DNA from: Lentzea tibetensis
GTDB lineage: Bacteria; Actinomycetota; Actinomycetes; Mycobacteriales; Pseudonocardiaceae
Assembly: GCF_007845675.1 (NCBI RefSeq)
Contig: NZ_VOBR01000004.1
Location: forward strand, 124,001 to 188,000
Length of the DNA stretch: 64,000 bases
Direction: 5' to 3'
The notes under the pieces were generated by a model. That model had not been told where the DNA came from. It saw only the letters and a list, made by a program, of their open reading frames with translations, and did no database searches. The position numbers were made by a program, and so were the translations under genes. Shown here piece by piece: positions 52,006 to 54,057 of this stretch; the stretch's first letter is position 1, and the number at the start of each line of letters is the position of its first letter.

Positions 52006-54057
52006 TCAGCCCTGCGCGAGATCCGCGAACCGCGAGTAGTGCAGCTGGTGAGCCACGGTGATCGTGGCCGTCGGCCCGGCACGGTGCTTGGCCACGATCA
52101 GGTCCGCCTCGCCTGCGCGAGGGTCGTCCCGCTCCCACGCATCAGGACGGTTGATCAGGATCACCATGTCGGCGTCCTGCTCCAGCGACCCGGACTCACG
52201 CAGGTCGGACAGCTGCGGCCGCTTGTCGGTGCGCTGTTCCGGACCGCGGTTCAGCTGCGAGATCGCGATGACCGGTACCTCGAGCTCCTTGGCGATCAGC
52301 TTGAGGTTTCGGGAGAACTCGGAGACTTCCTGCTGACGTGACTCGGACTTCTTGCCGGACGACATCAGCTGGAGGTAGTCGACGACCATGAGCTTGAGGT
52401 CGTGCCGCTGCTTCAGGCGGCGGGCCTTGGCGCGGATCTCCATCATCGTCAGGTTCGGCGAGTCGTCGACGAAGAGCGGGGCCTCGGAGATCTCGCTCAT
52501 CCGGCGGGCGAGACGGGTCCAGTCGTCGTCGCTCATCTTGCCGCCTCGCATGTCGCCGAGGCGGATGCGCGCCTCGGCGGAGAGCATGCGCATGACGATC
52601 TCGGTGCGGCTCATTTCCAGCGAGAAGATGGCGCTGGTCATGCCGTGCTTCACCGAGCACGACCGCGCGAAGTCGAGGCCCAGCGTCGAGTTGTGGGTCG
52701 GGATCATCGACTCGCCCGCGAGGTACAGGTGGTCGTGGTTGTCGACCTCGACGCAGCGCACCGGCACCGAAGCGACCGGGCGCACCGCGCGGATCTCGAC
52801 CCGCTCGGTGCTGCCGAGGGTGCCCTCGAGCTCCTCGATGTCGCGGCGCAGGCGGGCGAAGCGGCCGTCGACCGTGAGCGACGCCAGCAGGTCGCGGCGC
52901 TGGTAGCGGCTCGCCCGCAGGTACGCCGCCGGGATGTGCGGGTCCTCGTCGAGGCCGAGTTCCTTCGCGGTGCGGAGCTCGGCGTCGGTCAGCTCGAGGT
53001 CGCCGAAGCCGGACAGGAACAGGCCGAGCGAGGTCGGGGTCAGCGGGAGCGACGTGGCGGGCAGGTCCCACATCGGCGACATGCGGATGTAGTGCCGGGA
53101 CAGGCCCGCGGTCTCGAACAGCTGCGCGGTCGTGCGGATCGCCCAGAAGCCACCCGTCTCGCTGCACGACTCGGTCAGCCACTGGTGCTCCGCGTCGGCC
53201 ACGATCACCGTGCCGTCGGAGAACTCCACCGAGAAGCACGGGCGGCCGGGCATCACCTCGGTCGCGGCGACCACCGTCGTCGGGCGGCCGTCCGCACCCA
53301 TCAGCTGCGAGCCGACGGTGACCTCGCCCATCGTGGTCCAGCCGGTCGGCGTCGGCAGCGGCGTGTCGAGCGCCAGCGCCTTGCCGACACCGGGACGCGC
53401 GGCGACGATGATCATCTGGCCGGGGTGCAGGCCGTTCGTCAGCTCGTCCAGGTCGGCGAAGCCGGTCGGGATGCCGAGCGACGAGCCACCGCGCGACGCG
53501 ATCGCGTCGATCTCGTCCATCGTCGGCTGGAGCAGGTCCTCCAGCGCCACGTAGTCCTCGGTGGTGCGGCGGTCCGTGACCTCGTAGATCGCGGCTTGCG
53601 CGCGGTCGACCACCTCGTCGACGTCCGCGCCCTCGGCACCGTTGTAACCGAGCTGCACGATGCGCGTGCCCGCCTCGACGAGACGGCGGAGCACCGCCTT
53701 CTCGGCGACGATCTCCGCGTAGTAGCCGGCGTTCGCGGCCGTCGGCACCGTCGCGATCAGCGTGTGCAGGTACGGGGCACCGCCGACGCGCAGCAGCTCG
53801 CCGCGGCGTTCCAGCTCGGCGGACACCGTGATCGGGTCGGCGGGCTCGCCCCTGCCGTACAGGTCGAGCACGCAGTCGTAGATCGCCTGGTGCGCGGGAC
53901 GGTAGAAGTCGTTCGGCGCGAGCGCCTCGATGACGTCCGCGATCGCGTCCTTCGACAGCAGCATGCCGCCGAGCACCGACTGCTCGGCAGCAAGATCCTG
54001 CGGAGGCTGGCGCTCGAATCCGGGCTCCGCCATGCCCCGGTCGTCTACCAGCGCCAC
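52006..54057 (-). CDS. dnaB: Replicative DNA helicase DnaB containing an intein
   Basis: A 683-residue reading frame made of DnaB exteins (226 + 227 residues) and a 230-residue intein. The N-terminal domain reads RQPPQDLAAEQSVLGGMLLS; the ATPase domain has the Walker A motif split by the intein (RPGVGK before, STLGLDFARS after) and Walker B in LKLMVVDYLQLMSSG. C-terminal motifs include AISQLNRGPEQRTDKRPQLS and DLRESGSLEQDADMV. Splicing is needed to restore GVGKST and an active helicase. The start MALVDDRGMAEPG matches actinobacterial DnaB. A DnaA-box-rich gap separates it from rplI, as the next gene upstream. Confidence 0.97.
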   Translation of the reverse strand: MALVDDRGMAEPGFERQPPQDLAAEQSVLGGMLLSKDAIADVIEALAPNDFYRPAHQAIYDCVLDLYGRGEPADPITVSAELERRGELLRVGGAPYLHTLIATVPTAANAGYYAEIVAEKAVLRRLVEAGTRIVQLGYNGAEGADVDEVVDRAQAAIYEVTDRRTTEDYVALEDLLQPTMDEIDAIASRGGSSLGIPTGFADLDELTNGLHPGQMIIVAARPGVGKALALDTPLPTPTGWTTMGEVTVGSQLMGADGRPTTVVAATEVMPGRPCFSVEFSDGTVIVADAEHQWLTESCSETGGFWAIRTTAQLFETAGLSRHYIRMSPMWDLPATSLPLTPTSLGLFLSGFGDLELTDAELRTAKELGLDEDPHIPAAYLRASRYQRRDLLASLTVDGRFARLRRDIEELEGTLGSTERVEIRAVRPVASVPVRCVEVDNHDHLYLAGESMIPTHNSTLGLDFARSCSVKHGMTSAIFSLEMSRTEIVMRMLSAEARIRLGDMRGGKMSDDDWTRLARRMSEISEAPLFVDDSPNLTMMEIRAKARRLKQRHDLKLMVVDYLQLMSSGKKSESRQQEVSEFSRNLKLIAKELEVPVIAISQLNRGPEQRTDKRPQLSDLRESGSLEQDADMVILINRPDAWERDDPRAGEADLIVAKHRAGPTATITVAHQLHYSRFADLAQG
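52690..53379 (-). other. In-frame class 3 mini-intein in DnaB
   Basis: A 230-residue insertion in the Walker A motif, between GK and ST (protein residues 227-456). It begins with Ala (ALALDTPLPTPTGW), not Cys or Ser, and ends MIPTHN followed by Ser. The class 3 signature is complete: Trp67 in DAEHQW (block B), Cys209 in VPVRCVEVDN (block F) and Thr228 in PTHN (block G), with His229 and Asn230. The central 90 residues still resemble a LAGLIDADG endonuclease (HIPAAYLRASRYQRRDLLAS) but its catalytic blocks are lost (LTVDG instead of LMDTDG), so homing is probably dead. Class 3 inteins use the internal Cys as first nucleophile. Confidence 0.88.

Follow-up and report, generated by a model that had tools for sequence, protein, structure and literature searches.

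The dnaB locus and its insert

The window, by which is meant the whole stretch of 64,000 nucleotides analysed from Lentzea tibetensis (contig NZ_VOBR01000004.1), carries the gene for the replicative helicase DnaB, interrupted in frame at its P-loop by an insert whose residues assign it to the class 3 inteins (Table 1). The open reading frame contains a single stop, at its end, and the insert occupies residues 227-456 of the product, with flanks that total 453 aa once it is subtracted. The GTG start is uncertain, and the matches of relatives begin at residue 2. The DnaB model TIGR00665 scores 521 bits (cut-off 385) and spans the insert, the NCBIfam model TIGR01443 (intein_Cterm) exceeds its cut-off of 15.6 bits with 17.2-17.4 bits, and the Pfam DnaB_C match is interrupted around the insert; with the insert alone, Pfam gives no match above cut-off. 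The genes rplI and ssb lie upstream on the same strand, which is the usual chromosomal setting of dnaB. The gene contains one intein only, and a search of its genome (G000; 9.36 Mb, 105 contigs) at E 1e-30 returned no further dnaB match.

Table 1 Features of the interrupted dnaB gene, in window coordinates.
Feature	Position	Strand	Evidence
dnaB (replicative helicase) with in-frame intein, 683 aa	52006..54057	-	open reading frame and TIGR00665
Class 3 intein, 230 aa, DnaB P-loop (site b)	52690..53379	-	alignment, PDB sequence and fold matches
N-extein, ends ARPGVGK	53380..54057	-	
C-extein, starts STLGLD, includes stop; Ser+1 = 52687-52689	52006..52689	-	
Ala1, position 1 without nucleophile	53377..53379	-	A in 84/84
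Cys48, equivalent of M. smegmatis redox partner position	53236..53238	-	C in 25/25 of genus
Trp67 (B:12 of WCT), Asp62 and His65 just ahead	53179..53181	-	W, D, H in 84/84
Residues 76-190, eroded LAGLIDADG endonuclease	52810..53154	-	alignment to full-length relatives; pN/pS; confident model fold
Cys209 (F:4 of WCT), predicted internal nucleophile	52753..52755	-	C in 84/84
Thr228-His229-Asn230 (block G end)	52690..52698	-	T, H, N in 84/84

A first-pass annotation of this DNA had described a 230-residue insertion that splits the Walker A motif between GVGK and ST, and reading of the frame bears out its reality, its position, its Ala start, the C-terminal junction PTHN/S and the individual residues A1, W67, C209, T228, H229, N230 and S+1. 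The junction and Ser+1 are likewise confirmed by intein-free dnaB genes of a sister genus (L202, L203 and L206), which read straight through an uninterrupted GVGK-ST at the exact insertion point. Second DnaB-like genes, 39-73% identical to the DnaB of the window, are present in three Lentzea genomes (L028 and L032 in G006:C21, L030 in G022:C41 and L031 in G019:C28); the matches to the two halves of those in G006 and G019 adjoin directly, which leaves no room for such a P-loop intein.

A class 3 intein of a known kind

Class 3 inteins splice from an internal cysteine, and the insert has the features that go with this. Residue 1 is an alanine and hence a non-nucleophile, the WCT triplet stands at B:12, F:4 and G:5, the B-block His65 and the terminal H229-N230 are in place, and S+1 follows. 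Insertion between the Lys and the Ser of the DnaB Walker A motif places it at the P-loop site of DnaB-b inteins. The W67, C209 and T228 named in the first-pass annotation align with W67, C118 and T137 of Mycobacterium smegmatis DnaBi1, and in an alignment of 84 inteins (80 from DnaB and four from a second host) eight checked positions, 1 (A), 62 (D), 65 (H), 67 (W), 209 (C), 228 (T), 229 (H) and 230 (N), are invariant in all 84, which means that these residues are not due to chance. The best PDB sequence matches are M. chimaera DnaB1 (6rix, 6riy) and M. smegmatis DnaBi1 (6bs8, 6own), which match at both ends with E 2e-45 to 3e-43; the next is a gp41-1 variant at E 0.17. An AlphaFold2 model, computed from 18 aligned relatives and with a pLDDT of 92.8, takes the Hedgehog/intein fold, and Foldseek returns the same DnaB chains as best (E 4.7e-16 to 7.3e-15; the match to 6rix_B, at E 4.7e-16, has a TM of 0.88 by target length), followed at 9e-8 by PI-SceI, an endonuclease-containing intein. 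On these grounds the insert is, by its sequence, a class 3 intein in the Walker A loop of a chromosomal dnaB, and of an already known kind.

The closest described counterpart is DnaBi1, which passages of PMC6195587 present as a solved chromosomal P-loop intein with Ser+1, W67, C118, T137, D62 and H65 and without an endonuclease. It shares with the intein of the window the host, the P-loop site, Ser+1, A1, D62, H65, Cys48, the WCT triplet and the lack of a working endonuclease. It differs in being 139 aa long, with a linker some 90 residues shorter, whereas the intein of the window keeps a constrained and folded endonuclease remnant of 115 residues; moreover, M. smegmatis dnaB carries two inteins and the dnaB of the window one. 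The M. chimaera DnaB1 intein, assigned to class 3 in the part of PMC7664689 that deals with it, is the best match in both sequence and fold but is a 145-residue chain with a shorter linker. This DnaBi1 or DnaB-b type is better suited as comparator than the mycobacteriophage Bethlehem intein, which the first-pass annotation had proposed. Nor did its description of class 3 inteins as rare, with the novelty that this implied, survive comparison: a pattern scan finds at least 518 related stretches, of which 80 were kept, all with a DnaB-type P-loop junction (visible in L284 on the downstream side only), a same-site intein with Ser+1 is already solved in M. smegmatis, and a passage of PMC7891396 counts 1701 class 3 inteins in 2020. 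Class 3 inteins are not rare, and the intein of the window is ordinary for Actinobacteria.

What remains of the endonuclease

The central part of the intein was described at first reading as a shrunken LAGLIDADG endonuclease with broken motifs, a description that alignment to full-length relatives upholds, as does the absence of any Pfam endonuclease match. Mobile LAGLIDADG inteins have two motifs with an acid before the Gly, the acid being presumably the catalytic one. At the corresponding places the window reads LGLFLSGFGD and LLASLTVDG, and the full-length L154 reads LGVWLGDGHS and LLAGLLDTDGT; against the full-length relatives the intein of the window thus has a Gly at the first motif acid and a gap, that is a deletion, at the second, and so lacks the two acid-bearing motifs of a mobile intein, with an Asp-Gly still readable in its shortened second motif. 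The full-length class 3 DnaB P-loop inteins of the family (L154 and L161, 412 aa) have the same site and splicing residues and are 57-58% identical to it, yet unlike it they pass the Pfam LAGLIDADG_3 cut-off, as the intein of the window and L142 do not, and they come from genera in which the site is polymorphic.

Mean pN/pS within Lentzea is 0.054 for the N-extein, 0.125 for the C-extein, 0.19 for both splicing parts and 0.305 for residues 76-190, and the latter fold confidently in the AlphaFold2 model. The remnant is therefore still under purifying selection, less constrained than the rest but far from neutral. A pN/pS of about 0.3 is not what decay alone predicts, unless the fold matters for splicing, and it counts against the explanation favoured below.

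As an observation apart, the full-length DnaB inteins L149, L154, L161 and L185 have in their endonuclease a Cys-rich, zinc-ribbon-like stretch which is absent from the eroded inteins shown; the Pfam DZR_2 match in L154 is only a hint (0.068, below cut-off).

Distribution in Lentzea and its family

All 25 Lentzea genomes sampled carry the intein, 24 at 230 aa and one at 227, with no internal stops and with the endonuclease motifs broken in every one. Over 300 pairs the splicing-domain pS is 0.231 and the extein pS 0.226 (r = 0.68), an equality that is expected under joint descent of intein and host gene. A record titled Nocardia sp. NRRL S-836 (L238) groups with the genus, and its name is probably wrong.

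The wider sample comprises 298 genomes of the family, one per species and drawn from a larger group, and 152 of them have some related intein. Of the 139 loci read from the matches listed and the genus set, 132 hold such an intein, which sits in the DnaB P-loop in 127 cases and in a second host in five; the other seven (L197, L339, L370, L371, L372, L374 and L375) lack such a junction and were dropped. Among the matches listed the DnaB inteins run from 227 to 416 aa; outside this range are eight at 130-190 aa and two near 500 aa. Inteins of some 400 aa with apparently intact motifs occupy the same site in related genera, where their presence varies among DnaBs with identical extein proteins. 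A genome was counted as interrupted if its dnaB match had an E above 1e-156; this count took 240 of the 298 genomes, the other 58 lying in genera read as without such a P-loop intein and including G147 and G177 (genus g24; match broken), the fragmentary G034, and G099, which has no match. The P-loop intein was verified by sequence in 127 of the 132 interrupted genomes, the exceptions lying in g3 (three), g10 and g42 (one each). The open-licence literature yielded no earlier report of these distributions (Lentzea, Pseudonocardiaceae, VirB4, conjugative hosts). The new element here is thus the comparison across genus and family, the intein itself being of a known kind.

Fixation and the loss of the endonuclease

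The homing cycle, as set out in a portion of PMC1654191, predicts that the endonuclease is kept while empty sites exist and lost after fixation. Here a single insertion site spans motif-bearing polymorphic inteins of some 400 residues and genus-wide remnants of 230, which can be compared side by side, so that the prediction becomes testable in bacteria. Seventeen genera qualify, with at least three genomes, at least one interrupted genome and at least one intein sequence. Five of them are interrupted in every sampled genome (g1, which is Lentzea, 25/25; g22, 3/3; g34, 3/3; g38, 10/10; g46, 6/6), and all 47 of their inteins are sequence-verified. Among the matches listed, both motif acids are present in none of these 47 as against 44 of the 66 inteins from the 12 polymorphic genera, and neither acid is kept at the aligned place in any of the 47. 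A pattern-based count of motifs gives 37/66 against 0/47, with strict and relaxed pattern alike. At least one intein keeping both acids occurs in 10 of the 12 polymorphic genera, and Fisher's test by genus gives p 0.0034, a value that treats genera as independent, which they are not. The lost motif places hold different residues in g34, g38 and g46, and g1 and g22 share one loss. The pattern matches the homing-cycle prediction. Loss of the endonuclease is nevertheless insufficient for fixation, because one or both acids are missing in 22 of the 66 polymorphic-genus inteins too, and these are not fixed. The final step of the cycle, loss of the intein, was not seen among the 47 fixed-genus genomes. 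Five DnaB P-loop inteins of only 130-147 aa in the polymorphic genus g25 are mini-inteins that likewise occur without fixation.

Relatives in other hosts

The genome of the window provides its own control for the homing-cycle comparison in the form of a second class 3 intein, of 341 aa, in the P-loop of RecG (GSGK/A...VVTHN/T; L002:862-1884, reverse strand, equivalent to G000:C46:21874-22896). It has the motifs LLGLLLGDG and LLQGLLDTDG and a Pfam LAGLIDADG_3 match, and Val at the place of Cys48. A recG intein is present in seven of the 25 Lentzea genomes, recG being uninterrupted in the other 18; both motif acids are retained in six of these inteins, and L382, the exception, reads LDTGG at its second motif. 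The strict LAGLIDADG pattern missed six of these seven owing to an Ile. Within the same 25 genomes, then, a decayed dnaB intein is found in 25 as against a motif-bearing recG intein in seven. Lentzea frames of 667-733 aa also contain intein-like matches (L383-L394) that are 37-45% identical to the RecG intein.

Close relatives of the DnaB intein also sit in the P-loop of a second host (GLGGGK/S; L198, L199, L200, L201 and L373). They are 395-400 aa long, with endonuclease motifs present, and are 69-77% identical to the intein of the window over about 72 N-terminal residues. The C-extein of L199 matches Pfam AAA_10, and this second host is perhaps a conjugation-type ATPase. Four of these inteins were placed in the tree, where they form one starred branch among the DnaB inteins, which suggests a jump between the P-loops of unrelated proteins. 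Plasmid dnaB genes with P-loop class 3 inteins are found in M. avium and M. intracellulare records (L320 and L321, C48 present), so plasmids can carry the element.

Descent of the eroded intein

In the splicing-domain tree, which has few columns and leaves many other forks open, the inteins of g1, g22 and g32 form one clade (SH-aLRT 99), with g22 and g32 falling among the Lentzea rows (93, not starred). The DnaB extein tree groups g1 with g22 at 84 and places g32 outside, within a starred clade (97) of which g21 is a member too, so g1, g22 and g32 alone form no clade there. Judged from the intein sequences, a single shared erosion of the endonuclease across the three genera is likely; the trees disagree on descent, and a transfer of the intein to g32 or g22 is possible. 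Comparison of divergence between genera is powerless on this point, because Lentzea shows much the same pS in intein and extein whether it is compared with g22 and g32 or with the full-length inteins of g21 and g45.

Within g21 the history is of another sort. Intein-bearing and intein-free rows with identical extein proteins are found (L164 and L206; L174, L207 and L208), and among five pairs compared the lowest extein pS that separates an interrupted gene from an intein-free one is 0.030 (L163, L202). In seven pairs of intein-bearing genes, six of them within g21, the inteins are always more diverged than the exteins (0.286 against 0.161, for example), an excess that contrasts with Lentzea. 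Phages as a near source were considered and rejected: the best segment identity in IMG/VR is 65%, and no close donor emerged from a phage collection, in which 312 records gave only partial matches, below 60% identity in 311 cases and at 64% over 70 residues in one.

Why is the intein retained?

The explanation that fits these observations best, and very probably holds, is that of a class 3 intein which is no longer mobile, whose endonuclease has decayed and which has been inherited with its host dnaB and kept in every sampled Lentzea species. By analogy with its solved relatives the intein would splice through attack of Cys209 on the Lys(-1)-Ala1 bond, after which the N-extein would pass to Ser+1, Asn230 would cyclise and the joined flanks would give a normal P-loop helicase. 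The homing endonuclease would have been lost, probably in an ancestor common with the inteins of two nearby genera, which would put the intein in that phase of the homing cycle in which the element is fixed and degenerate. Since DnaB is essential, splicing must work. With or without a regulatory role in addition, the simplest reason for persistence is that no loss of the intein other than an exact one would be tolerated.

Set against this picture of a decayed but splicing intein are two readings in which one of its activities is misjudged. That the insert is dead and does not splice has a precedent in the class 3-like Arth_1007 of Arthrobacter, but the pages of PMC3196547 that describe this dead intein place it outside a real helicase and note that it lacks the F:4 Cys and the B:10 His; here both residues are intact, dnaB lies near rplI and ssb and the genome gave no further dnaB match at E 1e-30, which makes a dead insert very improbable. 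Continued mobility, by means of a helper or of an endonuclease that has diverged yet is still active, could appeal to the mobile look of the related full-length inteins of the family and to the Asp-Gly that survives in LLASLTVDG, but the first motif has lost its acid, a deletion affects the second, Pfam finds no endonuclease and across Lentzea the intein has diverged to the same extent as its host gene, so that this reading is extremely improbable.

A third reading, that the intein is kept as a switch, concerns its benefit to the cell. A disulfide between Cys48 and the Cys at F:4, or a bound zinc, would pause splicing and hence replication under stress, as has been proposed for M. smegmatis DnaBi1, for which passages of PMC6195587 report an oxidant-induced C48-C118 disulfide seen by mass spectrometry and a section of PMC7360933 reports inhibition of splicing by zinc. 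Cys48 is present in all 25 Lentzea inteins, in 126 of the 127 family DnaB inteins among the matches listed (L189 has Thr) and in all 80 kept scan loci, which overlap the family set; the M. leprae DnaB intein has it too (according to an excerpt of PMC8557812), and no loss of the intein is seen among 29 sampled genomes from g1, g22 and g32, whose inteins form the eroded clade. Yet the residue does not mark DnaB inteins in particular, a possibility ruled out by its presence in 64 of 75 members of a comparison set, mostly viral contigs and phages, in which a redox role is not obvious (the set comprises 64 of 80 viral loci, 16 having been left out by hand, mostly as apparent repeats, together with eight phage and two plasmid loci and the recG intein). 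Many residues neighbouring Cys48 are equally invariant, and every substitution tried at position 48 in M. smegmatis abolished splicing, as the same passages of PMC6195587 report, which fits a structural role. Given its conservation well beyond helicases and its invariant neighbours, a structural need for Cys48 is at least as likely as a sensor, and the difficulty of exact loss is by itself enough to explain persistence. A switch is therefore unlikely as the reason for retention.

The near-invariance of Cys48 bears on this question of sensor or structure in its own right, since it stands against the description of the residue as non-conserved in the passages of PMC6195587, and those parts of the DnaB-intein literature consulted on the point hold no report of its conservation across class 3. 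A still stronger proposal is that the intein, after losing its mobility, was turned, across whole genera of actinomycetes, into a permanent component of DnaB that is under selection, as a built-in replication checkpoint that senses oxidants or zinc through Cys48 and Cys209; this is quite unlikely. Were it true, Lentzea and its relatives would separate fixed regulatory inteins from polymorphic selfish ones at one and the same insertion site.

Two of the viral-contig inteins, L126 and L130, have Cys at position 1 in addition to a full W-C-T triplet and may link class 1 to class 3.
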